Source of the DNA: Obelidium mucronatum | Lineage: Eukaryota; Chytridiomycota; Chytridiomycetes; Chytridiales; Chytriomycetaceae | Direction of reading: 5' to 3' | DNA length: 64,000 nucleotides | NCBI GenBank assembly: GCA_025765595.1 | Contig: JAIVFH010000114.1 | Location: 36,418-100,417 of the forward strand | Part shown: positions 38,455 to 64,000 of the stretch, piece after piece | Position numbering within the stretch: the first letter of the stretch is position 1 | Layout: each line of letters starts with the position of its first letter | Translations under genes and position numbers: made by a program | The notes under the pieces: model-generated | What the model saw: the letters and a program-made list of their open reading frames with translations, nothing else | Told to the model about the DNA's origin: nothing | The model's database searches: none

Positions 38455-38528
38455 ATTTGTATTGTACAATACTACAATAATAACATTTTTTATTTATTTT
38501 ACTTTATTTTATTTATTTGTTGCATCAA

Positions 38529-41500
38529 ATGAAGCGCCTTTTCCTGCAGCCAAACGCGCAGAGCGGCGCAGCGAAAGCGCCGCGGGCAGAGGCCGACGAC
38601 GCTGACAGCGACTTTGATGTGCGCAGCCGGCTGGCGGACGCGGTGCGAGTCTCTTTCGTTCTTTCGCTGTTTCGTCTTTGCTCAAACAAAAACAAAACCA
38701 AAACCAAATCAACTAAAAACAACGCCTAAAACATCGCAGGACGCCACGGTCGCATTTACAAAGAACGCAATCTACCGCCGCATGCTCGAGTACCGCCGCC
38801 TGCACAGCGAGGCCGTGGCGCGCGCGCAGGCGCTGGAAGACAGGCAGCGCGACTTCGACGGGTGCGTGCGCGCATTCGTGCTGGCGCTGGGCCAGGTGTG
38901 TGTGGGCGTCGTGTGGGGCAAAACAACAACAAACAAACAACAATAACTGCAACTGCGCCAAATATTCACAGATTTCTACCGATCTATCCATAATACCCGG
39001 GCTGGACCTAAAGGCGGGCGGCGCCATCAACTCTGGTGGGCTTGTTTTCGCTTTTTTTCTGGCTGAGCTGGGGCTAATCCCACATATCCTTCAAGATTCA
39101 TCATTTGTGACTGCAATATTACAAGGCGCGGCACCAACTACAATCAACCAGTCCCTGGATTCTATCCGGTCCAATTTATCACAATCTATCGCGAAGGTCG
39201 CTTCTTTGATGTCATCGACTGGGGCACCTGGTGGTGAGCAGCTTGACAGGCTACGGTCTCAATGCCATACACTTTCTTCCGAGGTACGAATTTTCAGCAG
39301 ATACATATTATAATTTCTCAGCTTCATTCGTGTTTTTGTCCTTTACATCAATTTTGGTAGAACACGGACCTTAAAACAACAAACGCTTTTCAATCCAATC
39401 AAATTCAAGAACTGCTCACGGAACTTGAAACTGTTAAAGCTGCCAAAATTGTATCAGACCGCAAGTATGATCGACTTCGTTTGGCCGCGGATCCTGTACC
39501 GACACAACAGCCGAATGGATCCTCACAACAGCAACAACAACATAATCAACAAGGAGCAATACTTGGATCGGCGGGATCAAGCAGTACATCGCTCATTGCA
39601 AATGAGGCGGACGCAGCTTCTATGGCAGCATCGGCCGCCGCTTCAAGTGAATGGGAACTCCTCTGTCAATCCCGGCTAAAAGAAATTGAACAACTGACTG
39701 CTCAAAACCTGGAACTATCGCAACAATTTGAATCGTACAAAATCAACAATGTGAGAATTCTGTGGATTGGAAGAATTCATTTCTAGTTTTTCCTTACGGA
39801 CCGAAATTCTGAAAAATAATGCTTTAGGGATTCCAACAGGGGGAACCACTGGTTCGCCAGTCCGTCGTATTGGGATTGGAAGCGCGGTTGGAACAGGCGA
39901 ATCAATCATCTCTGCTGTATAAAAAACGCGCCGATGATTTACAAATTGAATTGTCTGAATTAAAAGCGGATCAAAGGAAATTCATGGATTCCATCGAGGT
40001 TTGCATTTTTCATCATTTTCGGGTCACGTTATTATCAGCTCAGAAGCTTTTCGGGATTAGAGTGAAGAACTTGCTCGCAGGAAAGTTCTTGAAAACGAAC
40101 TCAAAAAGATGGAAACGGATCTAGCACGAGTTCGAACGCATCGCGACAATTTAGCAGAACAAGCGCAACTGCAAAAAGAAAAGGACGCGTTTGAAGTGCA
40201 TCAGCACAAGGAAGTTATGTTTTTAGCTGGATCACAAAAGGTTTTTTTGGGGGGTTGTTTCTTTCATGGGGATGTACTGATGGACACTTTTTTTTTTGTT
40301 AGAGTAAAATTCAAGAGCTGGAGAGTAAAATCGAACGGTTAAAAATGAAGCTCGTGGCCAATGATGCAGACTCATTTCTTCGTGAGTTCTTTCTGGGCGG
40401 AGAAGAAGGAGAGGCAATGGAAACCGACGAAAATGTATTCTCGGAACTGAAGAAGCGACTCGAGTATGCTTATTTTTTTTCAATTCGGCCGCTGTTTCCT
40501 TAGAACCGGTTGTTAACTTTTACGAAATAATCAGTGCCTCTGAAGCAAAGGCAAATGAACTGGAACGCCTTTTGAGATCCTTTGAAAATGCGACCCGAGA
40601 CATGCGCGAAAAACAAGAAGTTTTGTTTTCTGAAAGCTCCTTGAGATCTGAACTAGAAAGAGTTCGAGCAGAGTTGGCCTCCTTGAACCCGGAAGCGAGT
40701 AAAACTGTTGCTGATTTGGAAGTGAAGATTGAACTTTACCAAAAGGTTATTTTTTTCTTTGCTGCTAAAGTTGTGGGCTTTGCTCATGCCTCTTTTTTCT
40801 TCGCGATTGTTGTTTAGAGTGAAGCTCGCTTGATTCAAGAAATCGAAATGCTTTCTGCAGCATGGACTGATTTGGAAACCCAAAATCAACGGAAGGTGTT
40901 TAATCTCGCTGAGAAGGAAGACCAAATCATAAAGTTGATTAGTGAGGTATGTGCAAGTATGAGATGCAATTATATATTTTTTTTCTGTCTTTAATCTGTT
41001 CGTCCCTATTATGCAGCGAACCAAGTTTGATCAAAAGTGTGAACGGCTTACAAAGGAACGAAATATGATCAATAACCAAGTAATTGCTCTGAAAAGGCAA
41101 TCAGAACGGCAACTGGAACAGATTCGAAAACTCGAAGAACGCGAGCGTGGTCTTAATGTTCAATTGGTGCGTTTTAGAGAGAGGGATGTCAGGTTGCTTT
41201 TGCCATAATTTTTTCTGTCTTTTAGCAAGCACTGGAAAAAGAGTTGGCGACAAAAACTGTAGCTGCAGATGTACATCGGCGGAAAGTCACTGAGCTGAAT
41301 CAGAAACAATCTGATTTGGTTGAGAAACTAGATAAACTGCATGCAAAGTTTACGGAGGTAAATGCCGAAATTTCGCAACCACACAGATGAGAGACATTAA
41401 AAACGCATTTTTTTTCAACCAAGGCTGAACGCGTATTAGGAGATAAGATGAAACAGTTGGCAGAGGAATCGCATACCCAAAAACGACTTTTGGAGAAGAT

Positions 41501-45903: not shown

Positions 45904-46111
45904 ATGTTTTCTTTGAAAGATAATGGTGTATATATTGATAGTTTGTTTAAAATAAGTAAGTTTGACAGCTTAAAATCAAGCAAATTTCCTTTAATAAGCT
46001 GCGACTTACTTAGTCATTGCTTCTTGATACCTGACCTCCGTATCAACAAACTTGGAACTATTGTTCTTAAGAATGCACTTTTTTGACTCCGTTTAAAAAT
46101 TACTTCAAGCA

Positions 46112-47622
46112 ATGGCGTTTGTCTGGCACACTGCCAGCCGACTGGACGCGGCGATCGCGGAGTCGCTCGAGGGCAACAAGCCGCTGGTTGTCCTCGTCGG
46201 CAACGGCGGCGCGGAGACGGGGCAGCTGCAGACGCAGTTCGAGCGAGTCGTGCTCGGCGAGGCGCGCGCGGGGGCCGGCGGCGTGGTGCTGCTGTCGCTG
46301 GGCGCGGCGCCGGCGGCGGCGGCGCAGTTTGCGGCGGTGTTTGCGTTTCCGCGCGGCGCGGTGCCGGCGCTGCACGCGGTCGTCGGCGGCGCGCGGACGG
46401 GTTTTGTGCGCTGGCCGACGAGCGACGCCGGCCTGCGCGCGTTCGGCGCGGCGCACCTGGGGCTCCGTCCGGCGGCAGCGGGCGAAGAGACGCTGACGCT
46501 GGCCATCAAACTGTCGCATTCGGTCAACCCCGTCAAGGCACAGTTCAACCCCGCTGACTCTCTGAGTGTCGTTCGGCAGTACATTATTAAGGCGGGCTTT
46601 GTTGCAGACTTTGATCTGGTTCAGCCCTACCCGCTGAAAGTGTTTAGTCTGGAGGAAGAGGCGTCTTTAACTCTGGCTAGTCTTGGTTTTCCTAAAAGTG
46701 GTGGCTCTCTGGTTGTCAAGAAAAAGGAATATCGTACGCGCAAGATTGTGGATTCTTCGGTTGCAGAGAAACAGGGCAGTACTAGTGTCGTGAACACAGT
46801 TAAACCAGCCCCCATGTAAGACAAAACCTTCCATCGCGTCTTGTTTTTGTGGAAATGAATTCGTGCTGCCATTGTCGGTGGATCTATTTTCGTTGAGTCG
46901 TTGGATATGGAGAAACCCACTCACCACAATGTTTCATTATTTAGCTACGATTCTTCCGCCCTATCCATCAGAATGCCTGATGGATCCAATATTCGTTCCA
47001 AATTCGCTGCATCGGACACTCTTGCCTCTGTCCGCGAGTTTATTAAGCAAACTTTGGCCTCCACTTCATCCATTGCCGCTTTCGAAATCGTACAAGTCCA
47101 CCCAAGCAGGTTTTTTTCTATTTCTGATGAGGAAAGGAGTTTGAAAGGTGAGCCCAGATTTCACTCTGATTTAATATTGCATTCTAGTTTATAACGTCCA
47201 CATAACGTGCTATTATTTGCCAATAAGATCTCGACCTCCTTCCATCTGCATCCCTCCTTGTCAAATTCTCTTTGTCTCAATCAAGCGCATATCCAGCATC
47301 TTCTTCAGGAATAGTATCGACTCTGTTGACACCTTTCCAGATTTTATTCTCGTGGATTTCCCTCTTGTTCATCTGGCTTTCATCTCAATTACGCGCTCGC
47401 ACACCATCTTCCCAACAACGTGCAACTCTGACTGGTGATCATCCACAACAACAAAGTGCATCAAATACAGTAAACGATGCAAGAGCCGCCGCTGAGAAAC
47501 GAAATGAATCCAGATTCAAATCAATGGCTGATTTAAACCGTGAAAAGGAGGAAAAAGCGGCTGGAAAGGACTCCAAGAAGGAGAGTTCATATAATGGGAA
47601 TTCAACTGCTCAAGATTTTTGA
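46112..47622 (+). CDS. UBXN4: UBXN4/erasin-like protein with two UBX domains
   Basis: An ER-membrane Cdc48/p97 cofactor in ER-associated degradation. The ATG at 46112 opens a UAS/thioredoxin-like domain in a very GC-rich exon (KPLVVLVGNGGAETGQLQTQ). Then comes a first UBX domain (LTLAIKLSHSVNPVKAQFNP, DFDLVQPYPLKVFSLEEEAS). A donor GTAAGA at 46816 and an acceptor ATTTAG at 46946 join in phase to a second UBX domain (SALSIRMPDGSNIRSKFAAS, FEIVQVHPSRFFSISDEERS, LDLLPSASLLVKF). Another intron lies at about 47149-47226. The tail holds a membrane segment (LFSWISLLFIWLSS) and ends SYNGNSTAQDF, like the human WNGNSTQQM end. The human homologue has one UBX domain. Confidence 0.8.
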
Positions 47623-47794
47623 ACCAAAAAAGAATTTTAAAAAAAGTGTATGCTTGTGACTCTTTTTTTTTAACAAAATTAATGTTGAAGTATGACTGAC
47701 CACTGGAATTCAAAGTGATTAAGAGAGATGCAGACGTAGCCCGTTTTCTGAAAAATTGAGCTACTTGTATTACTAAGTCACAAAGTGTTCATAT

Positions 47795-47876
47795 GGGCAG
47801 ATGGCCGAGCGGTCTAAGGCGCTGCACTCAAGTTGCAGTCTAGTAATAGGCGTGGGTTCGAATCCCACTCTGCTCA
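47795..47876 (+). tRNA. tRNA-Leu(CAA)
   Basis: Class II tRNA. The acceptor GGGCAGA pairs with TCTGCTC, the D arm is GGCCGAGCGGTCTAAGGC, the anticodon arm CTGCA-CTCAAGT-TGCAG (CAA), the variable arm TCTAGTAATAGGC, and the T arm GTGGG-TTCGAAT-CCCAC. No intron is seen. Confidence 0.92.
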
Positions 47877-49600
47877 TGATAGGGTTTTCAATTGTGATAC
47901 TAGTTTGGTTGGAGTTGGTTGATAACCCAAATTTCTTGCTACTAAGTAATTCACAGCAAGCTTTCTTTGAACTTGTCCATGAATCCATTTGCACTGCCTC
48001 TCCTTGTTGTCTTGGCAGTTGCAGCCTGCAGGTCAAACAATGATTCTTGCCAGTGCTCCAAAATTCTGTGTTGAAATTCACAATCAGAACCTTCTCCTCA
48101 AATCCAGCCCCTCCCCAAAACTCATTTAGAAGTACATGAGAACAATGTCTGAATGGCACTTGGGACTGCGGCACTTCTTTTCCATCATTGAAAAATAAGA
48201 GCGGGACTGGATTGATATAATCTTGAAATCCAGAGTTTAGGGCCATGACTTATTGTATTACTTTCATATGTTCCTGGCAGCATAACTGCATGACCCTGAT
48301 ACAAAATAAGGTGTTTTGGTTGCTGTAGTTCTGTTGAAGGATGGCAGAGTTTATCAGAAAGGTTGTTGATGGGGTTCTGAGCTATATTAGAACCAGATAG
48401 TCAATAAAAAGACTTACGGGCTCAGAAGGCGCAAGGGTTTAGAATGCGCAAGGGCTTGACCAGTAACGACTTGAGATCATGAGAGACAGAATCATAAGAG
48501 TTACAATAATGTAATCAGTTTGGTGACGCAGCATGAGACAATCACAGCTGCTAGGTGTTGCATGGCTAAGAGGCAGAGTATTACTCTCAGGGAGAGGGGT
48601 GGTGTACATTGCTCGCGCACAAGCTTACTTCCCCAGAAGCAACAAGGGTGAAGTATCGTGCACACACACACTTATCCACATGTTTATCTGAAACACAGGG
48701 GGGTGCTGCTAGGACATCAAAAAGTCATGCTTTGCACACCTACAGATTCCAACCCTCCCCCAGTTCTGAACAATACAAATAGACTTCACTTGTAGCTGCT
48801 GCCTGTCTAGATAAACTCCCCCAATGCAATATCCAAGCAAACTTTGGTCAACAAACATCTGACTGTTTCTCAGTTAATTCTCCTTGGAGAACATGTAAAT
48901 ATGTCATACCAGAACGTCTACAATGACCAACAAAGATTTGGCAGACCAACAACTTGGTTTCAATATCCAAATTGTTTAAAGGGTCAGGAAATGTGATTGC
49001 AATCAATTACACCCTGCACTTTCCACTACCTTACATTCATTCACTTGCTAGATTCAGTTTTTTTTGTTCTCGTGCACTCACTCAACAAAAGCTGTATTGT
49101 CACTGAATCCAGCTACTGACATTGTCATATTGATATTAAAATCTTTTGCAAGAGAAAGCAATGTGTTTATCCACAAATTCTGGGTTACAAAACAATACTG
49201 CAGATTTTCCCATGAGCTTGAAAATCCAACTAGTTTGAATTTCCTGCATCCTTTCTCCAGCTCAGACGCATCTGTTAACTCATTATTGCATGGGCGGCAT
49301 TTTGCACATTTTTTCTCTTAAAAAGCAGATTTTCCCAGTACCTTACTTGTCATCACTTTCTAAAAATTTCCGCAAAGTTTAATGGGGATTCGGCTATGTT
49401 TGGCATGGTGCCCGCAGATGTGTTTATTTTTTGTTGGTCATTTTGACCAACTTTCATGTGCTGCCCATCCAATGGGTTAATCTAATCCAATATATCTACT
49501 TTGGAATAGTATTTGGCATATGAAAGTAACAATGCCCCAATCATAAGAATGCTTTACAATGTTTGGCACTTTCCAATTCCGCAGAGTTGGCTGGTTCGCA
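47877..49600. other. Repeat-relic region without intact genes
   Basis: About 1.7 kb downstream of tRNA-Leu. It holds only short open frames with no recognisable domain. It is probably the decayed 3' side of the minus-strand Copia relic that follows. Confidence 0.4.
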
Positions 49601-50070
49601 ATCACAGGTGCCTGCAAACTCACACTTAATGAGACTTGGACACATCCAAGGGTTGTTTGTTGTCTCTCTGAAAAGAATAATCAGCACTTGTCTCCATGAG
49701 AGTAGTGATCCCACTACACTTTTCTAGACCGATTGGTGAAGACATAGCTTTGATCTGACACATATTCTAGTTCAATTCCCAAATGATATTCACAACTTCC
49801 CTGATACTTGACTTCTACTTTTGACTCCGACGCAGCAGCAGCAACCACTCAATTCACAATCAATTCATGGCAGACAATGTGAATATTATTGATGCAGAAC
49901 AAGGCCCATATTGTTAACCCATCAACTACTTTGACATAGAAACAAGGCTCCTCAAATGTCTGTGAGAAACCAAGCTCAACAAGGATAGAACATAACTTGC
50001 AATACCAATGCAAACTAGTTTGCTTCAAGCCAAATAAGCCTTTGAGCAAACGCCAAATTTCTGTCCTTCA
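49600..50070 (-). mobile_element. Ty1/Copia reverse-transcriptase relic
   Basis: The minus strand reads LKGLFGLKQTSLHWYCKLCS followed by LVELGFSQTFEEPCFY. This is the Copia RT palm pattern (LYGLKQ..W...L...GF..d.C.y). A shifted frame further along (49800 to about 49650) gives EYHLGIELEYVSDQSYVFTN, the connection region. Stops and frame shifts throughout mark it as inactive. Confidence 0.65.
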
Positions 50071-50836
50071 TGTAACTCGGGGGGCAGTCAAACATGGATT
50101 GGTTGTTGTTGCAATTTTGCTTGACTATTGGTGACAATTCGAAAAATATTTTACAGACCTTCAAGTTGATGGAACAGTTCTTGACCAAGGAGTGGCAGGT
50201 ATTAAGAGGAATGGATTTTCCTTGATCTCTTTGGTCTCTTTATAATTGGCATTTGTAACACCCCCCTGTACATTTGACTTCTCAGGATTTGCCAACAAAG
50301 GGTGCTTAAATAAAGTAAAAGATCATGTTTACGGGTTCCAAAATGAAGTATTGAAGGTTTCTCTCAAACCATGAATGTCCCTGAAACAATCAATGTCTGG
50401 TCTTATTGCCAAAGGTTGATCATTGGAGAACCCTGCTACCAGATCCTCACATGACTCAAGGCTGTTGCAAGTGAGAAAGTAGACTTGTTGCTGGCTCCTC
50501 AGCACTCTGAAACAGAAACATGGTCCTCATTCAGACACTTGAAAGGTCAAAACTCTGTTAGAATCTGTAGGCATGCGGAGTGGCCTTAGAGTTCTTAGGA
50601 AACACCCCCGTGTTTCAGAGTTCTGAAGGTATAAATAGGAGGAAATGTTCTTCACCGGAAAAGGGACAAACATGCGGAGAAGTGTGCGTGTGCACAATAC
50701 TTTACCCTTGTCGCTTCTGCGGAAGCAAGCTTGTGCACGAGCAACGTCCACCGCCCCTTCCCCTGAGAGTTATAAGCTGTCTCTTAGCCATACAACATCT
50801 AGTGGCTGGATCGTCCGGTGCTGCGTCACCTACCGA

Positions 50837-51127
50837 TTATGATAAGTTATGAGCCCAAACAGCTCGGCTTATGTTGTGATGTGCATTATGAATGAGCAGG
50901 CTGTTTGGCTTCTTTTTTTCGGCGAGATCAAAGTGTTTGATCATTTGAGGCCTCAAAGTTTCAGGTGTTTCAGATGTAGTTATCACTGAGACTGGCGATG
51001 CCGTGTGGCGCCTGGATAGATCTGTGATCAGAACAAGTCCTTCAATGTCATCACCAAGTTTTGTGGACAAGCGCCTTGGGGCGCTGAAGCAGTTGACTTG
51101 TTTGTGGTTTGACAGGACATTGATCAT
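50837..51127 (-). mobile_element. Copia gag relic, inverted copy
   Basis: The minus strand encodes STKLGDDIEGLVLITDLSRR, which is nearly the same as the plus-strand gag relic at about 52285-52350 (SSKLGDDIERLVLITDLSRC). It is a second, more decayed copy in opposite orientation, about 1.2 kb away. Confidence 0.55.
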
Positions 51128-51612
51128 TACTCCCCAGTGTCAAGTTGCAGAATGCTCTGTAGATTTACAATCCTACTGATCATGTAACAAAACTCTGGCG
51201 GTTTTTCTGTAGGTTTGCATCTACGTGTGTTGTTGTGATGATAGTAGTGTTGCTAAATATAGATCACACAAGAGCAAACCCAACGTCGTCGAACTCATAA
51301 TAGAAAGTCTTCTCTATGTTTTAGTAGTTGTTTATTCAATAAATAGTTATCTCTAAGCTATGTAGTATGCAGAAAAGAGTATGTTTGGTTGGATCATTGT
51401 GCGCAATGATCACGTCCTCAGATGTGACGGCCTGCACCAAAATTGCTTTCAAAAGCAGATTTCCGGTGTTAAGAAGTATCTCTTGTGCAGAGGTGATTTC
51501 GAGGCTTCTCGCCATTGTTTGAATTTAACGCCGTCAGATTGTGTTATTGTTCTCCAAAACAAAGCATGTCAAAAGACCAAGACGCAAAGCCAGAGAGAAT
51601 CAGCGCATCCTC

Positions 51613-52412
51613 TTAAGTGACACTAACTATCCAGTCTGGAAATGTCTGACATTGACGGAGATAGGTCAGTTGAACGAAAGAACTCTGGACACGAAGTTTG
51701 TCCCATTTCGTAAACAAGCACGTTCGCCCAAACCGGCTGGAGGCATTGTTGCAGCAGCTCGCGTTGTTACCAGACAAAAGCGGGAAAACTATAGTGTCTG
51801 TCACCAGAGTCAGACGATGATGGCAACGACAATAACGAAGACGCGGAAGCTGTTGAAGCGGATGAAGTCCCATCAGCTCAAACAATCAAAGAGTGGAAAG
51901 CAGTCTACCAGCAGTTTGAACAGTTGGATAAGATCTGGCAGACCCTAGATTGCCGCGCAAAGGACAATGCAGATGCGGTTCAGAGGACTATGCGGGCCAT
52001 CAGAAGTGGATTGACACGGTCAATGCAAATTTCCTATTCTGGGTTTGCCACTCCTGCTGAGCTATGGGCGGAACTTCAACGTACAAAGGATCCTGCTAAT
52101 TGCAAGATGGATAGTTTGGTCATGGACACGTATAAGGCATTAGCGATACGCGCGAATCAGTCTATTCCTGATTATATCAAGGAGATTCGCGACATTGAAG
52201 ATAAGTGCACTTCTTTGGGTGAAACTCTACATTTGGGATTAGACTCACAAAAGAAGGTGCGCTTGCTTAGGGTTAGGGTTTCCAGCAAACTTGGTGATGA
52301 CATTGAAAGACTCGTTCTGATCACAGATCTATCAAGGTGCCACATGGCATCGCCAGTCTCAATGCAAGTTGCATGCGTTAGCCGAACTATTAGTAGTGAT
52401 GGCTTTAATTGA
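51613..52412 (+). mobile_element. Copia-type gag (UBN2-like) relic
   Basis: Plus strand. The gag start DTNYPVWKCLTLTEIG (about 51620-51670) follows the usual 'NY..W' pattern. After frame changes, a longer block opens at 51924 with DKIWQTLDCRAKDNADAVQR, FATPAELWAELQRTKDPANC and SIPDYIKEIRDIEDKC, which is the UBN2 gag core. Protease, integrase and RT do not follow. The AT-rich stretch at 51230-51365 just upstream could be LTR-derived but has no confirmed partner. Confidence 0.65.
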
Positions 52413-52555
52413 ACAGACTGTGCAGAGACCAGTTCGTATTTTGCGGATGGACAACAGGGAAATTGCAACCAATAATAGCTTCATAGAGCTCTGCAAAGTT
52501 AGAGGTATTACGGTTGAGACCATTGTGTAGCACAAGAGCAGTCTGATGGGCAGTT

Positions 52556-52627
52556 GCAGTAGTTGTATAGTGGTTATTATGCCTGCCTTCCAAGCATGCG
52601 ACCCGGGTTCGAATCCCGGCTACTGCA
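52556..52627 (+). tRNA. tRNA-Gly(TCC)
   Basis: The acceptor GCAGTAG pairs with CTACTGC 7/7. The D arm is GTATAGTGGTTATTATG, the anticodon loop CTTCCAA (TCC) with one mismatch in its stem, and the T arm CCGGG-TTCGAAT-CCCGG. No intron. Confidence 0.9.
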
Positions 52628-53125
52628 CTCTGTGCACACAGCAGTGCCTTATTGCTTGTCTTGAAGGGCAGTAACTCTATTGTTGCCTTCACCACCAAGT
52701 CATTTGACCTTTTGCTAACAAGCAAGCCAATCAGCGCAGTAGGTAATGATGTCTTTAGCCTATACTTAGCTGCTCTAGTACTACTGCTCCAGTTTTTTTA
52801 TTGACAGCAGATTGTGGCTCATGATGTCAGAATGAAATATCATCAAAAAGATGTGACAGGACCAAATTATGTGCACCAGAAGGCCAGAAAGCATGAATTG
52901 TGTTTTAGTCGATGAGGGAAAGTGTGAGGACAACGGCGACAGCTTTTATTTTTACAATTTGTCTGCAGACAAGAGCAAAGTCAAGTAAATGACACTGAGG
53001 GCTAAAAAAAAACAAAGAGCATGGATTGAGCCAGCTTTTGCTTAAGCAGCTAAGCAAAAGGTGGATTTCGGTTGTAGTACTGTTTAAGTTATAAACGGGT
53101 TTTCTCGAACCATCAGCCATTGCAG
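52628..53125. other. Intergenic, nothing recognised
   Basis: About 500 bases between the Gly and Ile tRNA genes. No coding frame with recognisable domains and no clear repeat. Confidence 0.4.
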
Positions 53126-53200
53126 GGCTCCATTAGCTCAGTTGGTTAGAGCGTGGTGCTAATAACGCCAAGGTCACAGGTTCGATCCCTGTATGGAGCA
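53126..53200 (+). tRNA. tRNA-Ile(AAT)
   Basis: The acceptor GGCTCCA pairs with TGGAGC(A). The D arm is AGCTCAGTTGGTTAGAGC, the anticodon arm TGGTG-CTAATAA-CGCCA (AAT), and the T arm ACAGG-TTCGATC-CCTGT. No intron. The sequence is close to canonical eukaryotic tRNA-Ile. Confidence 0.92.
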
Positions 53201-53952
53201 GACCAGTGGAGGATGTCAGTGGTGTGGAGCCTATGGAATGGCAATTGGCAGCTGGATGGAGCACACCAGACATTTTTAGACAAAATGCACAAGAAACATA
53301 TTAGACATCAAAAATGCACTATTTTTTTTCTGTCAGGATGAAAGTTGTTGGTGTGCAGCGCAACCCTATGTTTAAGAGTTTTAGGGGCCGGAAATGGTGG
53401 TACATGCAGGTGCAGTTCTGCAGACGCAAAGATATTTAAGCTCAACATTCTGTGAGCAAAATTGCTGCCCTTTTCTCTAAGAGTTATAAGCAGTCTTGGA
53501 CTACAATCTTGAAACGTGATAGTTCAGGTTGCTGCAAAATTCAACCGACAAAAGCAACTGTTCTCTAAGGGTAGTGGGACAGACAATCTGCAATCCAAGA
53601 AAGCAGGCTGCTGGATTGTATAATCTCCAAGATTGAGTAGGGACTCAGTGCGTAATGTAGGATGCTGGCCAGATGCTTGTTGGCAGAACTGTTGATATTG
53701 GGATCTCAGTCCAGGTTTCAGTTTCCAATGCAACAAACATGGCAACTAAGCAGGGTTTGCTTGACACAAAGTCTTGTTCACAGCAGAGCCAGCTGATCAG
53801 TCAGGTTGAGTTTGTGTGCAGCATGCTTGAAAAGAAATGTCATCTGTAAAGTTATCCTAATCAGCTAGTGGAAAGAAGCGCAGTTTGTTAGTATTTAAGT
53901 TTGGATAATCAAAATTGTGATGGTGTAGTAGTAAGTTTCAGCACAATCATGG
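53201..53952. other. Intergenic, nothing recognised
   Basis: About 750 bases between tRNA-Ile and the 5' half of the split tRNA-Asp. Only short frames without domains are present. Confidence 0.4.
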
Positions 53953-53970
53953 TCCCAGATAGTATAGTGG
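53953..53970 (+). tRNA. 5' half of a tRNA-Asp gene split by the mobile element
   Basis: TCCCAGATAGTATAGTGG matches the acceptor 5' strand and D arm of fungal tRNA-Asp. The acceptor TCCCAGA is complementary at 7/7 positions to TCTGGGA at 62243-62249, where the anticodon and T arms are found. The cloverleaf is broken in the D loop by about 8.2 kb. Confidence 0.85.
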
Positions 53971-53977
53971 CGAATAT

Positions 53978-54042
53978 GGGGTGAGAAAAAAGTCCCAACA
54001 AAAAATTTTGGGTGAAAAGAGTCCCGGGGACTCTTCTCACCC
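53978..54042. repeat. Left-end terminal repeat and hairpin
   Basis: GGGGTGAGAAAAAAGTCCC (53978), then a direct repeat GGGTGAAAAGAGTCCC (54010-54025) immediately followed by its inverted copy GGGGACTCTTCTCACCC (54026-54042). The last two form a near-perfect hairpin. Confidence 0.8.
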
Positions 54043-54423
54043 ACACACACATTTATTCGAGAACCGAACACAGCACAAGCGTCAAAGTTGCAGAATCGGG
54101 TGGGAGAGTCACCACCACCGGTTTGGCAGTGGGGGATGGAGCGGGGGGTGCTTTGGAGATGATGCGATTGCTCCCAAACCGATCCAGCGCGATCCAGCGC
54201 CCTCAAGTCCTCTCACCACTGCTCTGCACAGCCAGTGAGTCCAACCGATACAAGAAGAGGTTAGGTAAGGGGACTGCAGTTGGGGGTCAGGGGGAAGGGG
54301 AGGAAGGGAGGAGGGGAGGGGTACGGCGATCTTACATTGTTTCGAACTGAAAAAAATAATCTGATAAAAACTGAAAATAAAGCGAATAAGAAATAAATAT
54401 TTATTATTACTGTATCCCAGCTG

Positions 54424-56364
54424 CTATAATCCAATCTTTTTATAGTAAGCTATAACTTTGCCATTGGCTATAACTTTACTCTTTTGAAACCCCACGACTT
54501 GAAGCCCATCCAAAGAAACCGCTCGCGAGATAGCAACGTACACCTGGCCAGGTGCAAAGGTACGGCTCAAATCCACCTTTAGGTACCGTATGGTTTGGCC
54601 TTGGCTCTTGTGAATAGTCCTGAAAAAAGGAGTAGATGACGCTCAAAGGAGAGAATATTTTAAAAAAAAAAAGCTCACATCGCATAAGCAAGACAAAGAG
54701 GGATCTAATAAAAGAATGATTTACTGAAGAAGAAAATTAAACAAATCCCATACCTGCTCAAAGCTTGTCTCGATTCCTGTGAATGTATCTGAAAAGGACC
54801 ACACTTCTGGTTCCAGTGTCCTCGTTATTGCAGGCGCGGACCCAACGGCAGCAAACTTCACAGTGACTTTTCTATCGTTGATGCACACATCCTTGACTGT
54901 CCCGATGCTTCCGTTTGCAAGACCATCGCCGAGGTTCTTCACAAGCATAACCTGCGCGCCAACCTTCAACTCCAGCAGCTCTGGTGCAAGTACCCGGCCC
55001 ACCAGCTCCCGCAACTTCACAGCGTTTCCAGTTAATTTTGCAAAGAAGCCGAAAGTGTTCCCACTCAAGGCCTCAAGATGCCCCAAGTTGCAGCGATCGA
55101 CTTCGTCCCTTGTAGAAAACCTGCAAAGAGGAAATAGCTTAAGTAAATGAAAATAAAAAAGAACCACCCCAACTAACTGACAGCTGGGTCGGCTTCAGTC
55201 CATCTGGGCAAGCAAGTTCCCTGGAACAGGATTGCATCAGTGTTTCCGTTTTAGACGAAATCGCGTTTGCCCCATAACGAATTTCGTTGAGAGCGTCAAT
55301 AAAATCGGTTTCGGATTGGCGATATATCTTCGTGAGCTGCAGATAGAATTAAAACCCATAAGCGATGAGCAACAAATACATACCGCTACAACACCATCCT
55401 TGAACAAGGACGACCAAACGCCGCTCTCGAACGCAAACTGAGCCAGTTTGGGCGGCTTTACTACTGGGGGGAGTTGAAGGAAGTCTCCACAGACAATTAA
55501 CTAAAAAGAAGAAAATGAGTCAAGCAGCGCAATAAACAAAAAAAAAAAAACCTGGATTCCCCCAAACAGCCCGTGCTCCGTACGCAGCGAAGCTGCAACG
55601 GAATGAAGATCATCGAAGAACTGACCATTAACCATTGAAACTGGATTAGGAGTGAGAATAATTGTAGAGCGAAAACAATGAAGAGCTCACCTTCATCCAA
55701 GATAAGAACATTAACTTTCCTCCAGCGTTTCTTTGCCGCTTCGCTCATATTTTTAATCATGTCATAGGCATGTTCTGCACAAAATTGGTTAATTGGCAAC
55801 AGGGCGCGAGACAGGTTTTTTGTTATACATACCCTCTCCCAATCCACATCCAGCAAACGCATGAATAGTTTGCCCGTCAATTTGAAGTGCGGCGATCCCT
55901 AATTGGTAAGTGCGTTGAGCTAAAGGATCGCGATAACTATTCAAACATTACTAATTAACCCGTTGATGCTGTCACCGCTACCATCCCATCGTCAGGAAAC
56001 TGTTGACGACATAGGTGGATAATTCTTTTCAGAGTGTGAGACTTCCCCGCTCCTATTATTGGTAAACCGAAGGCCTTAATAAAATGAACAATACACCAAG
56101 CAGCGACGTAAAAAAAAAGAGCTCACCAGCTTTTCCAGTAAAGAATACGCTTTGACCTTGAGCAACTAGGGTGAGGATATGATGCTGCTGTGCAGAAAGG
56201 CCCTCCGCTATCGCTTGGGTAATAGTTATTTCTGGGTTCGTTGGTTGTTGCTGGCGCCGCTGTCGCTTAGGAAGAGATGGCTGTGAAGCGCTGGAGATAC
56301 TAGAGAAGACCGCATTGGTGCGAAGAGTTGCTAGGGACGTGTAGTGGGGAGAGAAGGTGGTCAT
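54424..56364 (-). CDS. Pif1-family DNA helicase (element-borne)
   Basis: 5'-3' superfamily 1B helicase. From the ATG at 56364: a Ser/Gln-rich lead, then the Q-motif region SAQQHHILTLVAQGQSVFFT. Walker A is GKAG, an intron, then AGKSHTLKRIIHLCRQQFPD. Motif Ia is VAVTASTG, an intron, then GIAALQIDGQTIHAFAGCGL. The DEAD-like box is VNVLILDE. Further on are MVNGQFFDDLHSVAA, LIVCGDFLQLPPVVK with KLAQFAFESGVWSS, the 2B-domain LKVGAQVMLVKNLGDGLANG, and the C-terminal TIHKSQGQTIRYLKVDL and VYVAISRAVSLDGLQV. The stop is at 54424. About seven short introns. All helicase motifs are present, so it is probably functional. It lies 127 bp downstream of the recombinase gene on the same strand. Confidence 0.85.
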
Positions 56365-56490
56365 TTTAAAAGAATATTCTTTTCCAAAAAAAAAAAATTA
56401 ACGTATTCTATTTCGATAACACTTAAAACTAAAAATGTATATAGAATATCACGAAAACAAGAATTGAAATTTTATTTCATCACAGAAATC

Positions 56491-59400
56491 TCACTTTAGT
56501 AACTTCATACTAACAGGAAGCGCAGAAGGAAAATTAGTCACTCTCGACATCGCAGAAATACTAAAAACATCAGCTTTTGTCAGCCGATCTGTCTTCAAGA
56601 ATCGAGGATCCACCATCAACTCAGCAAATGCAGTCTGAAGTTTCGCATTGCGAGAGTCAGCATCCAGCGCATCGTACTGCTCAAGAGTCAGTTGAGCCTT
56701 GTCAAGAACGAACCATCCAACCCTGTTGTAGTTCATGAACTGTTTCTGCTTCGCAGTATTGCCAAATATGGCTGTACCATGTCGACTACCAAGAACGCGA
56801 AAACAAAGACCAGGCCCGAGAAGAATTTGTGTGGCCTATTATATTTTAGCAAACTTCCAGCAGAAGAACACAGTATTACCTGAGCAAGACCAACAGAGCT
56901 GATAACTGGAAAGGTGACAGTAGGAACGTTATCTTTGCCGCGGTCACTGGGTGAGTAAGGACGAGCGTATGTGGCACAGAGGCCTTCAGCTTCGCTGTAG
57001 ACCGGTTGTAAGACAGGAGGAGGTTGGGCCCGAACAGTGCCAAAATGAGGAATGGCAGCAGGCGGCGGTTCTTCGACTTGAGGAGCGTCATGCGGATTAT
57101 TTTGAGTATCGTCATTGGCAATCAAATTAGATTGGGCGCGATCGGCAGGAGGCGCATTGCGGTCCATATCACTGCTGATGAGTGTGGCCATAACCCGCTC
57201 AAGAGCTCTCGTGTTTTCATGGAGCTGGTCTTTGTAGGGCAACAGAGCAGCCTCCAAAGCTTGGCGGATAATGTCGGGAAGGCCACTGATTTCGTCTTGG
57301 AGGTTTTGCGGCAAGCGTCCAAGCTGTAAACTAGCAACTTGTTCATCAGAGAGACGAACAACAGTCGCAGTGGGGGAAGTTGCAGTGTGCTGATTGGGTC
57401 TCTTTGCGGTACTCATTTGCAGTTTCCACGCAGCGTACTTTTGTTCTTCAACAAACACAGCGTTGTAGAAGTCTTTCCACTTGTCAGTATCGAAAACTCC
57501 GCCACCGCCAGCTTTAATGGCTTCAACTATTTGCAGAAAAATTAAATGAGGTCATATACATAAAAGAAAGATATAATACCAACCAATGTCTGGAGTAACG
57601 GCGGCAGACACAATTGGACACTTTGCAATATGGTAGAAAAGCGACGCCAAACCATAGAGGAAAGACTTGCGAATGTGGGCCAGAGTTCGTCCTAAAGCTG
57701 GCAGTGAAACAACCCCACTCTTTAAATGGTGGGCGTTAGCTTCGAGAACCTCGGCAGTAAGTTCGTCATCCGAATCCAAATCCATAAGACCAATAGCTTC
57801 GTTGTGATCTTCCACCTCATCCACGGTTTCACGAAAGATAGGGTCATCAGGGTTCTTGACCTTGTCCTCGAAGACGCGCCAGAGAGGAAAGAAATGCGCA
57901 AGCAGTGCTTCCGAAGGTTCGGGAGCACGGAACCTTGGAGCAATGAACTCGCCGTCTTGATTACCATGTGGCCACATTCCAGTACTATACTGGACAACTT
58001 CTCTTGGGTACTCTTTGAAGTAAGCCGTGTGGAATGCGGACTTGGTATTCTTGTTGTCACCAGTAAGCCAACCGATCCGCTCAATAGGCTCCGTTGGCAC
58101 GCCTGCTTCGCTCATTTTCTTTGGCTGAATCTTCCGGAAAATATGGAGACACTTGTTCATGATGGCGACTCCAAGCGCAAGATGCATATTCTTCACCGCT
58201 TCCGAGTGTGCTGAAGACGACATCTCCGATTTGACTGAAGCTGCTGTGAAAAGCTTGATATTTTTGATCACTGAGTATCCTTTCTGAAGTTCACGCGCTT
58301 TCTCTGGTCGGTTTTGCACATGTTGCTCAAAGTACTCCATGAACCCAACAGAGAATTCAAAGTCTCGTAAAGGATCAAAATGAGGTGCGACGATAATGTA
58401 GCGCTTGTCATTCTTCCCCTTTTCGGCTAAAAGAGACTAGAGAAGAATTTAGTCAACACAGTAATCAATAAATAAGAAATACATAGAGTCCACAAAGCCC
58501 AAGGGCCGCTCTATTATTCCGTTTGGAGTAATATCGCAAGTAAAGCGCCACATTCCCGTTTGGGAACATAGAACATCCAAGGACAAGGAGGGGTTTGATA
58601 CATAAAGGACAAAAACATACCGCAAGCTTGGTTCCATCAACCAGGATTTTGGTTGCCATTCGGCATTTGTGCGGATTTCATAAGGTTCCGAGAGTAGCCG
58701 AATGAGATTGAGGGAGCGCAGTTCAGATCCGCGACCACAGGAAACATGACTGAGGTTGTGCATGCACAAGTCTCTGGCGGCACCAGGATGTTGGTTGTTT
58801 CCCTTTTTAAGTAACCTTCCAAGAAAGTAGCAGCGGGACCGTATCTCGTAGTCCTCAGTAGTGTGCTGGAGAATTTGACGTTCGAAGTTGTCGTGAATAT
58901 CACGGTCCATCCTGTTGAAACGGTTTAGCAAACTATGTTAAGTACCTTAAATATAACATACATGTCCTTGCGACGTACAGACGACTTTGTTGCGGAGGTC
59001 TCAATGGCAACATGTGAGTCATGCTCCCGCTTATCTTCGCAACCAATAATTGTTTCAGCTTCATCTTGGGTCACAAAGCAATTGGACAGCTTAGCAATGA
59101 GACATAAGTGGAGATGCATTGCTTTTAATGCGCCCTTCATGTGTCAAAGTTAGTTATAAGGTGTGATCGAAGGCAGGACACATACCCACTTATCGCCTAG
59201 CTCAGTCGTTTGCTTGCCACTGCGATCCCGCTTGAAATCACTAGCAAAAGCTTCCATAACCAGAGTGACGTACTTTCCCTTCATGAGATACTTGTGGTCT
59301 TCGTACAGGTCGGGTGGGGCAGAGGCCTCCTTTAGTCGAATTTGTCGAATGATTCCGGGCATGTGATCCTGATGACCAATTAATTACGATTAAACAGAAA

Positions 59401-61113
59401 GAAAATAAGAAAAATACCATATAATCAACCCAGCAGCGGACAGCAGTACCGAAGCCATTAGCAGCTTTTTGGGGATCCTTCGAGGGTTTCGGTTTCCAAT
59501 AAGCCAATATTACTGAAACGCAATTTGCGCGAACAATTTGACGCTGGTTTATGTCCATCACAGTCATGAAATTGTCGGCAAGGTTGTTTATGAATGGCTC
59601 CAGTTGGGGAAACCCGCGGGTAAATAGGGCATGGGCATAGAGGAATGGTCGGTCGGCAATAAAAGTACCAGTAACTACGATAAAGCACATTAGCAATAAA
59701 GAATTGGTTTGGTGAGTGAACGACGTACCCTTTTCATCAATGCGGTCCCTCATTCGTTTCAATACTTGACCATGCTCAAATTGTTGTTGGTAGCCTTGAA
59801 GACCCGTGATAGTGATGATTCCAGCGAAAGCATCAGGAAGGTCCAGCTGCCAGAAATCGTTCGACCACGCATTTCGGGTATTCGGGAAGAACAGCTGCTT
59901 ATCGGCGGCAGTGAATTCGCGGCGCACGGGTGTATCCGGCGGGGAAGCTTGCCCAGTAGCAGCAGCCAAGTGAGACCCGAAAGAGGGTTGGTGCAGCTTG
60001 CGGCCACGCGGTACGGGCGGTGCTTGACTGGAATCAGCAGAATCAGCAGGACGGCGGCGGCGGGATGGCGGACCTGCAGCCTCTTCGTCTTCGTCACTGA
60101 AGTTCTCAGCATCGCCGTCGTTAGCCCGGGAACGCTTGCGCTGGCTTTGGTTGGGTTGGCGGGCAGCACGGGTGGGTCGCGAGGTAGGCTGTGATGCTTG
60201 CAGGGCGTGTGCGGGGGCTATCCCGCCGGCAAACTTGAGTGCAGGAGTGGATGAAGAGGGACCAGAGCCAATAGGAGCCACGGATGTAGAACTGGAGCCA
60301 GGGGCATTTTGCGAGCAGGGTAGACACTTGCCAAAAGTCGAGCAGCGCGAAGGAGGGCCGTGGACCCAGTGGATGTTACCGTCGTGGGATTGTTTGCACA
60401 AGTTCAGGAAACTGCCGTCGTTGGTGTTGGTGGTCTTGCATGCGGCGCACTTTGGGTGAGGGTGGAGTTTTTGTGAGTGTTTTCGGTTAGGCTTGACAGG
60501 TGAAATGAAAAAATTGAAAACATGGCGGGCAATTGGCAGTGCTTGGCAGGCACACATTGTGAAATGCAAATGAATCACTTACAAATCTTTGCCATGCATC
60601 CGCCTCTTCGTCATACTTCCATCCATTCTTAATGGTGCCATCAATGTGGCACCAACCATTTGCTTCTAGAAACGCGCGTTGGAACTTGCCGAGGACCTTA
60701 CCATCGGCAGAGAGACGGACAGGCGCCAAGATTGGTGGTGAGTCCGGTGTAATTGATGGCAACCAAGTTCCATCTGCTTGCTTGTGGGCCGCGACGATGG
60801 TCATTTCTTAAAATCATAAAGAGAAGTTTTTTTAAGTATTAAAACCAAGCATCACTTACTGACCTTCCATTAAGCTCTCGTGATAAGGACGCTCGCGGCT
60901 GTGCAACTCCAGGTATTTGTCGAGACCATCACTGTCATCGTCATCATCCCCGTCGTGGTCTGTGCTGTCAATATTCGAGGCGATATTGCGATAATACTCG
61001 GAGTCGCTGGAATCGATCGGGGGAGGGGGCTGAAACCGTTTGATTTGCGCTTGAATTGCGCTATGGTAGCGATTGTTGATTGCTGGAGGGATATACGCGA
61101 TTCTGTTGTACAT
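56491..61113 (-). CDS. Crypton/Ndc10-like tyrosine recombinase (element-borne)
   Basis: Starts at 61113 (MYNRIAYIPPAINNRYHSAI), with about ten short introns. The first 300 residues carry a small Trp/Asp-rich domain (WLPSITPDS, FLEANGWCHIDG) and a cysteine cluster (CAACKTTNTNDGSFLNLCKQ, CSTFGKCLPC). A basic linker with KRSR follows. Then come FPNTRNAWSNDFWQLDLPDA, LADNFMTVMDINQRQIVRAN, and the catalytic core HPGAARDLCMHNLSHVSCGR-GSELRSLNL (first Arg). The core continues with LLAEKGKNDKRYIIVAPHFD (Lys region) and GVPTEPIERIGWLTGDNKNT through AFHTAYFKEYPREVV (third Arg and candidate Tyr). Order and spacing follow Crypton and Ndc10/GCR1-type fungal recombinases. A coiled C-terminal tail ends at 56491. 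Family assignment is by motif order only; the exact catalytic residues need modelling. Confidence 0.65.
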
Positions 61114-61304
61114 TTGTGTTGCCCTTGCTACATTATTTATTTAGTACGTCGAAGCATGTTAGTACTTCGAAGCATGAAATCGTGAATTTAAATAAATGAA
61201 TTACTTTGAGACTTTGATTATCTTTGTTGTTCTTGTGTTTTGTTATTTTATCCTTTGTGTATTGGACACTACGCACGATGTTTTGACAACAACGGCGACG
61301 CCAA

Positions 61305-61740
61305 AAAAACTACTTTCGAAAGTTACAACGAATATAATAGATATATAAACGAACATACTTAAAGTTTGGGCGTCGATGGGTGGGTTTTCGTTGTGTGTTG
61401 GACTGTTGATACTAGTCAAGTTTCTCGGAAGTAGCGTTAGACTAAAATAACGCTGTTTTCGAAAGTTAGAACAAGGATAATAAATGTATAAAATAATAGT
61501 ACTTAAAGATCAAGGGTTGGTTGTGTCGTTGGCGGCCGGTGGTTAACTTTCTGGTTGCTGTGTATCCAAGGTCTCGGAAGTGGCAATAAAACACTAAAAA
61601 CCTATTTTCGAAAGTTAAAGCAGTAATAAAAACTATAAAACATTATGGTACTAGAAGCACAGGCGTTGGTTGGCCTTTGGTACGCTGTTGGGGAAGCGGC
61701 GGCAACGTCAACGAAAAGGCAAGTTAGCTGTTCATCATAG
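61305..61740. repeat. Three ~145-bp degenerate tandem repeats upstream of the recombinase
   Basis: TTTCGAAAGTTA occurs at 61314, 61457 and 61606 (spacing 143 and 149), each followed by an A-rich AATAA..TATAAA stretch, a GGTTGG/GTCGTTGG-type block and CTCGGAAGT. The core TTTCGAAA is palindromic. They lie between the recombinase start and the right-end palindromes. Confidence 0.7.
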
Positions 61741-61806
61741 AATGAAATACATTAGTAAATGATATGGCAGTAAAGGATTAGCTGAAAAGATTGACCAGTT
61801 AAGCGC

Positions 61807-61912
61807 GGACTTTCTTTGGCCAATACCCTGAACTCAAGGTATTGGCTGAAAAAAGTCCGGGACTTTTTTTGGCCAATACCCTGATGTCAAGGAATTGGCA
61901 GAAAAAAGTCCC
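61807..61912. repeat. Two tandem palindromes near the right end
   Basis: 61807-61858 and 61859-61912 are related imperfect inverted repeats. Each runs GG(G)ACTTT..TTTGGCCAATACC, a 10-nt loop (CTGAACTCAA or CTGATGTCAA), then GG(T/A)ATTGGC.GAAAAAAGTCC(C). The stems are about 20 bp each. Confidence 0.85.
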
Positions 61913-62196
61913 ACCCGGTCAACCACAAGGAAATCTCCCCCCCTTTCCACCACATAGGAAAAATAATGTAGCGATGGTTTTGGCAGAGTTTGGCACTTAT
62001 CCGACGAGTTTGAAATTTCCTCAACACATGGTATACACACTTGACACAACCCACCGTAACACCCCCAAACCACCCCCTACACCCCCCAAATCACTCCCCA
62101 TACCCTTCAGTAACATATAGATACTTTGTAGTGTGTTATATTATCGATTGTGTGTGTCTCTCTATTGGGACTTATCCTCACCATCATTATGGAGGG

Positions 62197-62250
62197 CCAG
62201 TATCCGCCCCTGTCACGGGCGAGACCGGGGTTCAATTCCCCGTCTGGGAG
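62197..62250 (+). tRNA. 3' part of the split tRNA-Asp(GTC) gene
   Basis: CCAGTATC completes the D arm, the anticodon arm CGCCC-CTGTCAC-GGGCG has anticodon GTC, and the T arm is CGGGG-TTCAATT-CCCCG. The acceptor 3' strand TCTGGGA and discriminator G end at 62250. The adjoining upstream bases (…CATTATGGAGGG) cannot form the 5' acceptor, whereas the segment at 53953 can. Confidence 0.88.
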
Positions 62251-62287
62251 GTCTACAATTAGCTTTTGCTTGTGGATGATAGGCAGG

Positions 62288-62730
62288 TAAGGTGAGAACG
62301 GGGCGGGGTTGGGGGCGAGGCAGGACTTTCCCCGCATCTCTGGGGGTCGGGGTCAGGATTTCCCCGCGCCATGCGGGGCAAGCCTCGGGGCTGTGGCTTA
62401 CCTCTGGCTGTGTGTGTATTTTAGAAATAAAAACAGAAAAACTTTTTTTTTTAATAAAATTCCAAAGAAAAAATTTTTTGTTTTTTTTTTCATAAAATAA
62501 ATAAAATTCAAAAGAAAAAATCCTAACTACAGTCAAATTGCTGCCCGAGAGCATGTAAGTGGCCAAAAATCACACTAAAATGCCAGCTAAATTGGCTTTT
62601 TATAGAGATTTTATCTTACCTCGTGGGAGTGCGGGGAGTGCGAGGCGGGGTTCAAGTCGACCCCTACCCCGGACCCCGGAGCTTTGGGGCAGGGGTGCCC
62701 TGCGGGGTGACCCCGCCCGTTCTCACCTTA
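62288..62730. mobile_element. 443-bp MITE with 8-bp target duplication
   Basis: The terminal inverted repeats are TAAGGTGAGAACGGGGCGGG at the left and, read from the right, TAAGGTGAGAACGGGCGGGG. They are flanked by the direct repeat TAGGCAGG at 62280-62287 and 62731-62738. GC-rich ends surround an A/T-rich centre with no coding frame. An 8-bp duplication fits hAT- or KDZ-type transposition. Confidence 0.88.
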
Positions 62731-62738
62731 TAGGCAGG

Positions 62739-63620
62739 AATATATAGTTGGAGAATACAGTTCACATTTTGGTATCTAATCCATGCAACGTTACAGTCTG
62801 TTTACAAACTATAACATGAACTATAACATTGCTTGAAAGTGTCTTTAGCCCAAAATGTAAGTGTTCTATGTGAGAGTAGATGTGTACCTATTATGGCAAG
62901 TCGCAACTTGAAATTGCTCCACTCCAACATATCCAGAGGCACAAGCAAATGATATATCAGTAAGGTAAAAATTCCATCACGTGGACTTCCAGGAGTTCTG
63001 GAAGCGCCGAGTGAAACGTCTTCTTGGCGCGCTTCGGAACATTTTGGAAAACCAGAGCAAAACAGAAATCTTGGTGATTTGGGATAGATAACACATTGTG
63101 TTTCAAATCACCAGGTGTGTACTTCAACATATTTACTTCACATATACATAATTAAGGGTTTTATGAAATAAACACATTGTGTTCCAAATCACTAGTATCA
63201 GAGAACACACACATCAATGTGGTGTAGATGCTGAAGCAATGGAGTCTCATCTTTGAAGATAGGATCATGACCTGCAACTTGCCTTGCTGTGCAACTCCTG
63301 TGGCGTAGCAATAGACTACATTACACAGAAAATCACAGAGTGAGTGTTGTGTGGCATTGTTTGGTGGCACTGGTGGACTTGAACCTGGGACCTAGGTGGG
63401 CAGAGTTGTAGCCATTGATTGTTGGAAGAAGATATTGTAACAAAATGAAAAAATGTTCTTTTGGACTATTGCAAATTTATTGGGAGAAAGGTGCCAGCTT
63501 GATAGAATTACTGCAGGCTACTTAGAGAATCATAGCTCAAGGCATAGGTTCTGTATGCACTACTAATGGGCTGCTCTGAGTAATTAATGTTTTCACTTGT
63601 TGTTTCTTATTCAAGGATAT
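62739..63620. other. Intergenic, nothing recognised
   Basis: Nearly 900 bases without a recognisable gene. A minus-strand T-arm-like GGTTCAAGTCC around 63371 is discussed under rejected items. Confidence 0.4.
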
Positions 63621-63693
63621 GGGCGTATGGCAAAATGGTTACCGCGCTTGACTACGAATCAAGAGATTCCAGGTTCGACCCCTGGTACGCTCG
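63621..63693 (+). tRNA. tRNA-Arg(ACG)
   Basis: The acceptor GGGCGTA pairs with TACGCTC (one G-T). The D arm is GGCAAAATGGTTACCGC, the anticodon arm CTTGA-CTACGAA-TCAAG (ACG), and the T arm CCAGG-TTCGACC-CCTGG. No intron. Confidence 0.92.
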
Positions 63694-63748
63694 TGTTTTG
63701 GATGGCTGGGAAGATATGGGGATTATAGGGTATAAACTGGATGTGCCA

Positions 63749-63819
63749 GGTCGTATCCGGATTCGAACCGGAGTTACTGGTATCAAAAACCAGGGTGATG
63801 ACCACTAAACTATACAACT
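63749..63819 (-). tRNA. tRNA-Gln(TTG)
   Basis: On the minus strand the D arm is AGTTTAGTGGTCATCAC, the anticodon arm CTGGT-TTTTGAT-ACCAG (TTG), and the T arm TCCGG-TTCGAAT-CCGGA. The acceptor pairs except for the first A-C position. It lies 55 bp from tRNA-Arg on the opposite strand. Confidence 0.87.
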
Positions 63820-64000
63820 CTAATTTAGCACTGGACCTGTTCTTAATTACAGCTTATGCCTGCCTGCAATCTAATGTCTCATGATCAGCAGGTTTTATGT
63901 GACATGAGCTGATTTTGCACCAGAGACATGTATTCATTCACATCATCTCTTTGCAATGCAGGCCGCAACTTGTTGGAGGGCAATGGAGGCACATGAAACT

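Follow-up and report, generated by a model that had tools for sequence, protein, structure and literature searches.

The stretch of DNA analysed here, referred to below as the window, comprises 64,000 nucleotides of the chytrid Obelidium mucronatum (C114:36418-100417, in a genome assembly of 48.3 Mb and 694 contigs), and its last base, 64000, is the end of contig C114. Towards this end lie two parts of tRNA-Asp(GTC) and between them an element, El1, in which two intron-containing genes were recognised, both on the minus strand, one for a probable tyrosine recombinase (YR) and the other for a Pif1-type helicase. We consider it quite likely that this 8.2-kb stretch is an autonomous DNA transposon which is moved by a tyrosine recombinase and has the D loop of a tRNA gene as its attachment site. 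The features are listed below, with their evidence in brackets.

52527-53952, plus strand: left flank, tRNA-Asp locus type A (similarity to the flank of the uninterrupted tRNA-Asp L015)
53953-53970, plus strand: 5' part of tRNA-Asp(GTC), with acceptor strand, D stem and D loop to G19 (sequence TCCCAGATAGTATAGTGG, genome search, ARAGORN on joined flanks)
53969-53971, plus strand: GGC, left copy of a 3-bp direct repeat, the proposed crossover core (sequence, uninterrupted genes)
53972-62197, no strand: mobile element El1, about 8.2 kb long with one GGC included (second copy; boundaries from uninterrupted genes)
53980-53998, plus strand: left inverted arm GGTGAGAAAAAAGTCCCAA, 8 bp from the core (sequence comparison)
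54009-54043, no strand: subterminal inverted repeat, arms 54009-54025 and 54027-54043, 94% complementary (repeat search)
54424-56364, minus strand: Pif1-family helicase gene with introns (Pfam matches, Walker A)
56491-61113, minus strand: gene for a probable tyrosine recombinase of about 1,336 amino acids, with 11 exons predicted and no stop in the spliced frame (gene prediction)
61807-61911, no strand: two 52-nt copies near the right end, each also self-complementary (repeat search)
62165-62182, plus strand: right inverted arm TTGGGACTTATCCTCACC, 12 bp from the core (sequence comparison)
62195-62197, plus strand: GGC, right copy of the direct repeat (sequence)
62198-62250, plus strand: 3' part of tRNA-Asp(GTC), CAGTATCCGCC...CCCCGTCTGGGAG (sequence, genome search, ARAGORN on joined flanks)
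62251-64000, plus strand: right flank, of locus type B; it probably duplicates C56:22110-23868 at the contig end, and the true neighbour of El1 may be another

The tRNA-Asp halves and their flanks

The two tRNA-Asp halves are 8.2 kb apart and the break falls in the D loop, just after G18-G19. Neither half was called as a tRNA by ARAGORN in the whole window or by Rfam in 50000-64000, and each half alone gives nothing in ARAGORN. Joined through one GGC, the two flanks are read by ARAGORN as tRNA-Asp(GTC). The halves which the original prediction had placed at both ends of an element of about 8.2 kb are thus present, and their acceptor strands, TCCCAGA (53953-53959) and TCTGGGA (62243-62249), are complementary at 7/7 positions. 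They are not chance similarities, because the genome contains the exact 18-mer of the 5' part at 22 places and the reversed control at none. The 3' part has at least 24 tRNA-Asp matches genome-wide, together with one that is read as tRNA-Glu. Twenty of these matches are uninterrupted tRNA-Asp genes, which read TAGT-GGC-(C/A..T)AG, i.e. TAGTGGCCAG or TAGTGGCTAG, and the acceptor stem is identical in all 20. Orphan 5' parts occur at two places (the window and C56:13748) and orphan 3' parts at four (the window, C56:22012, C205:38179 and C56:4065). A single break point is common to all of them, after TAGTGG and before (C/T)AGTATCC or AGTATCC. We rejected a tRNA intron as an explanation: the intervening sequence is 8 kb long, codes for proteins and has a second copy elsewhere in the genome.

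Do the two halves belong to one interrupted gene, as had been claimed from the pairing of the acceptor strands? The pairing is no proof of this, since all 20 uninterrupted tRNA-Asp genes carry that stem, and the flanks match two loci. Uninterrupted tRNA-Asp genes with these flanks could indeed be found, separately for each side. The left flank with the 5' half (52527-53970) is 91.5% identical over 1,476 columns to the uninterrupted gene L015 (C56:230414). The right flank is 95.6% identical over its first 90 bases and, beyond a 0.44-kb insertion, 96.3% identical over 1,273 bases to the uninterrupted tRNA-Asp array of C114 (L003, L005, L010; C114:17538, 22255 and 26942). By these similarities, the window's left and right flanks come from different tRNA-Asp loci, here named type A and type B.

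What, then, lies to the right of El1 in the chromosome? The sequence 62199-64000 corresponds to C56:22110-23868 with no substitutions and four single-base indels up to the end of C114, while the element itself is about 3% diverged. The last differences between El1 and its second copy, El2, before 62199 are found at 61956 (A/G), 62174 (an indel) and 62198 (C/T). A parallel pattern is seen between C205 and C161, which differ by 10 substitutions within 38364-39238 (about 1 kb) and within 46075-50000 (3.9 kb) by no substitution, only by three single-base indels. There the switch to substitution-free sequence lies within the element, and the copy extends as far as the end of C205. We favour contig-end chimeras because both the window/C56 and the C205/C161 pairs turn substitution-free up to contig ends. 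It is also in keeping with this that a type-A tRNA-Asp 3' half is located in C205, where it is bordered by YR2, an element of another family described below. It is therefore probable that the right junction of the window is an assembly artefact, and that El1 is really followed by the type-A tRNA-Asp 3' half with its flank, or by YR2 in tandem at the same attachment site. However, the switch in the window is near the tRNA junction, where a biological exchange would also be possible. The stretch C205:46075-50828 is identical to C161 apart from single-base indels (letters compared to 50000) and is itself a probable assembly chimera.

Other copies of El and two sister families

Two full copies of El are present in the genome; a search with the left end gave four places and a search with the right end four places at two loci. 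The second copy, El2 (C56:13748-22110), is mostly 95-99% identical to El1 per 250-bp bin and about 3% different overall. Both copies start after TCCCAGATAGTATAGTGG and their left flanks differ, being of type A in the window and, at C56:13748, of type C (83% identity with L022 across 114 columns), with a right flank of type B in El2. As far as the flanks tell, El1 and El2 are two insertions at the same nucleotide of different tRNA-Asp genes. A truncated copy, El3, covers C56:4117-7718 and has its left tip at C56:13620-13667. It contains a 5.9-kb insertion (C56:7719-13619, in L029 5220-10000 and L009 1-820; C56:12500-12799 lies outside the letters examined) with CAGGGGGGTGGTGATC-type inverted ends and an apparent 9-bp target duplication, CTCTTTTCA. 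A genome search with the recombinase exon of the window gave 13 matches, C144 among them. C33 and C203 contain weaker matches of the El type, broken by stops.

The element in C144 splits a tRNA-Cys(GCA) gene within one contig of 74.8 kb, in the form GCTCAGT-GGTA, 7,786 bp, GGTA-GAGCG. Its arms, AGCAAATGTCCC and GGGACATTTGCT, stand around 13 bp, GGTA and 8 bp, a layout like that of El (12-GGC-8). Genome-wide there are 15 5' halves and 15 3' halves of tRNA-Cys, 14 of them adjacent and one split. YR2, the third family, has a second copy in C161, where it splits a tRNA-Gly(TCC) gene in the form GG-TTAT, about 8.5 kb, TTAT-TATGCC (C161:30001-36699 is outside the letters examined), and no clear inverted arms were found at its ends. 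For tRNA-Gly, 19 halves of each kind were counted: 18 genes are uninterrupted, among them the one in C88, whose first base is a variant; the split gene is that of C161, and a 5' half in C205 is part of the contig-end duplicate. When joined, the flanks in C144 and C161 read as tRNA-Cys and tRNA-Gly. The D loop is broken within about four bases after G18 (numbering by eye) by El, the C144 element and YR2.

Since El2, the C144 element and YR2 reuse the same place in the D loop, targeted, tRNA-breaking integration into D loops is well supported by sequence comparison. A eukaryotic, probably recombinase-encoding element inside a tRNA gene which it leaves broken, as originally predicted, is what we see for tRNA-Asp, and the suggestion of sequence-targeted integration is supported as well. 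The question whether other copies also sit in tRNA-Asp D loops is answered positively for El2, which starts there, and negatively for the left end of El3, which lies outside the tRNA.

Two observations on the C144 family may be added. The tRNA-Cys element has two recombinase-like genes on opposite strands (C144:47243-50395, L062), with 37-38% mutual identity. A related copy in C366 (1-6679, L063) has the form of an inverted repeat, which may be due to rearrangement of the copy or to a palindrome created by the assembly.

The probable recombinase gene and the helicase gene

The recombinase product of El2, P0001 (BDR26DRAFT_936782, Obelidium mucronatum), has 1,319 amino acids and is 95% identical to the window protein over the searched region; the window prediction differs from it in the splice choice near 58480-58650. 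Relatives of the El protein are few, and among 7,994 and 2,689 candidates scored we found only P0001 and P0002 from this genome and P0003 from Rhizoclosmatium sp. JEL0117. The relatives of YR2 are two metagenome proteins with 29-31% identity. The recombinases of El and C144 are homologous (hhalign probability 97.4%, E 1.2e-11), and so are the El protein and an open reading frame of C66 (94.3%, E 9.7e-8); YR2 does not match the C144 protein. In six sequences of three families (El, C144 and C66) the aligned block is invariant only at G, H..R, W and Y (HxxR..W..Y), and an upstream block, R..E.R, is kept in five sequences; as the block was centred on HxxR and the upstream R by eye, independent evidence comes only from W, Y and E. 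The catalytic set of tyrosine recombinases consists of R, HxxR, W and Y. The catalytic residues of the Crypton recombinases are given as R-H-R-Y (PMC3212892). The motifs of YR2 read GLRMDEL..HTFR..ARHKTMNTSMRY (HTFRK), and YR2 matched XerC/XerD at the first catalytic R with E 0.0041-0.0045, against 0.025 for the best control (5 unrelated proteins and 6 shuffles). A search of the sequences of solved structures, tblastn in phages and a search of viral contigs gave no useful match, and PHROGs gave nothing beyond a weak integrase match for the C144 protein (E 0.12).

The helicase gene was recognised by its domains. The open reading frame 54721-55167 matches Pif1_2B_dom (PF21530, E=2e-8), the first exon carries the GKAG of Walker A, and P0002, the predicted protein of a partial copy, matches PIF1 (PF05970, E=3.5e-17).

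Discussion

How could El move? In a circle made by joining its ends, the arms TTGGGACTTATCCTCACC and GGTGAGAAAAAAGTCCCAA would stand opposite one another with 12 bp, GGC and 8 bp between them, and the predicted circle junction is arm-ATCATTATGGAG-GGC-GAATATGG-arm. The junctions, the direct repeats, the arms, the reuse of the D-loop site by El2 and by two other families, and the uninterrupted genes are seen in the sequence itself, and from there we infer a circle, the recombinase chemistry and a role for the helicase. The element would leave as a double-stranded circle, in which the inverted arms flank the short core at the junction. The recombinase would then carry out recombination between this core and the identical 3-4 bp of the D loop, around G18-G19-N20 of tRNA-Asp. 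Integration would split the gene after its A-box half, with a short direct repeat left on each side, and this copy of the tRNA would be lost, which may be tolerated by a family of more than 20 tRNA-Asp genes. The Pif1 helicase would be an accessory, perhaps for replication of the circle.

Several of our results weigh against this interpretation. With flanks of types A and B, the assembly contains no clean single-gene insertion of the El family. Moreover, not every end in this family lies in a D loop: the left end of El3 is about 75 bp upstream of tRNA-Asp, where uninterrupted loci read GATAGTATCC; the El3 body is cut off at window position 58183 and joined directly to a tRNA-Asp 3' half. In C366 the copy related to C144 splits no tRNA gene and one of its ends is rearranged; an intact tRNA-Cys is about 570 bp away. 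The ends of the relatives in C66/C176 and C16 were searched for and not found. The recombinase identity has its own difficulties. No Pfam recombinase family was found in the El and C144 proteins, P0001 and P0003 had no Pfam match at E≤1, the AlphaFold models are unusable (pLDDT 28.6 and 31.3), and our own motif scan missed Cre and lambda Int and so proves nothing. Against canonical tyrosine recombinases the El and C144 proteins scored no better than controls (E 0.02-0.4). Since YR2 does beat its controls and they do not, a tyrosine recombinase is likely on sequence grounds for YR2 and probable for El and C144.

Could El be a cut-and-paste transposon with a DDE transposase instead? Dada families are known to insert specifically in tRNA genes, tRNA-Asp included (PMC8869645), just as the families described here target tRNA-Asp and, in the sister families, tRNA-Gly and tRNA-Cys. 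The direct repeats would then be target-site duplications; inverted arms are present, and short direct repeats would suit either mechanism. However, Dada elements belong to animals, their duplications are 6-7 bp long and their enzyme is a DDD/E transposase, whereas our repeats have 3-4 bp and the residues invariant across families, R..E.R, H..R, W and Y, are YR-like. The same Pfam search of P0001 and P0003 gave no DDD/E transposase, and the aspartate of 'VDGSKL' in El is not kept in C144. The Dada group of tRNA-Val sits in the anticodon arm (PMC8869645), not in the D loop, and an arm spacing of 8 bp at one end and 12-13 bp at the opposite end, repeated in two families, is also at odds with it. 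A Dada-type origin thus seems to us unlikely. We give still less credence to ectopic recombination among the many tRNA-Asp copies, by which tRNA halves would have been joined to an element without any target specificity. The flanks of the window (A/B) and of El2 (C/B) would fit such exchanges, as would the right break of El3, which is also at the tRNA junction, but it would leave unexplained why tRNA-Cys and tRNA-Gly are broken at the same D-loop spot, with 4-bp repeats and inside single contigs, and why symmetric arms stand around the core. Two other assignments were rejected: KDZ had no match in the scanned proteins, and for a Helitron there is the Pif1 helicase only, with no HUH Rep match in those proteins.

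Returning to a transposon moved by a tyrosine recombinase, the closest known systems include the Cryptons (Goodwin 2003; Kojima and Jurka 2011), YR-encoding DNA transposons of fungi and other organisms that end in short direct repeats and are proposed to pass through a circular form (PMC3212892). El may resemble them in its probable tyrosine recombinase, its short direct repeats and its presumed circle. Crypton repeats have 4-6 bp, and ours 3 bp (GGC in El) or 4 bp (GGTA in C144, TTAT in YR2). Unlike Cryptons, which have no terminal inverted repeats, El and C144 carry inverted arms near both ends, and El further differs in its Pif1 helicase gene, its many introns and its tRNA D-loop target. 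The main text of the Crypton paper contains neither 'tRNA' nor 'helicase' (PMC3212892). El would work like a Crypton, but we do not file it as CryptonF because no GCR1_C domain was found in P0001 or P0003 (Pfam, E≤1) and inverted arms and a Pif1 gene are present. Among the Starships, which have direct and often inverted repeats, Osiris navis of the Pezizomycotina is a fungal YR element that inserts in and fragments a multicopy RNA polymerase III gene, 5S rDNA (PMC12153272). El likewise breaks a multicopy gene of this kind and has direct repeats. However, Starships are large cargo carriers of Ascomycota with a DUF3435 captain, whereas El is an 8.2-kb chytrid element with two genes and a tRNA target, and DUF3435 had no match in P0001 or P0003 at the same threshold.

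Bacterial islands that integrate in tRNA genes also use tyrosine-recombinase integrases, and they usually restore the tRNA with a piece that they carry. El shares with them the tRNA gene as attachment site and probably the kind of recombinase, and differs in that the tRNA stays broken. YR-type elements at a fixed spot inside tRNA genes are familiar from bacterial islands and hardly known in fungi; we found no tRNA-targeting YR transposon of fungi in the open-access literature searched, which does not prove its absence in print. Is there then a guild of such elements in Obelidium? We give an even chance to the view that at least three YR transposon families occupy tRNA D loops (Asp, Gly and Cys) with tRNA genes as hot spots, El1 and YR2 maybe standing in tandem in one tRNA-Asp like an accretion island of the bacterial type. 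If our interpretation is true, fungal tRNA genes, like bacterial ones, are exploited by site-specific tyrosine recombinases, which here use another position, the D loop, and belong to more than one family in a single genome. Targeting of multicopy RNA genes as safe harbours would have arisen with a third class of enzyme, in addition to the non-LTR (long terminal repeat) retrotransposons and the DDE enzymes of Dada. Compact recombinases with defined short cores would be on offer, and the rearrangement of tRNA clusters in this genome would gain an explanation that can be tested.

Some minor observations concern the window and the tRNA loci. The 52-nt copies at 61807-61911 have weak matches to miRNA families in Rfam, far below the gathering scores. 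The 0.44-kb insertion in the right flank (62287-62729) has 20-bp inverted ends, TAAGGTGAGAACGGGGCGGG and CCCCGCCCGTTCTCACCTTA, and begins 36 bp past the tRNA 3' half; it is missing from the paralogous type-B loci, and its GGTGAGAA resembles the El arm. The tRNA genes of this genome lie in duplicated, often inverted clusters, and at C114:17538, 22255 and 26942 (L010, L011) three uninterrupted tRNA-Asp genes stand in tandem, about 4.7 kb apart.

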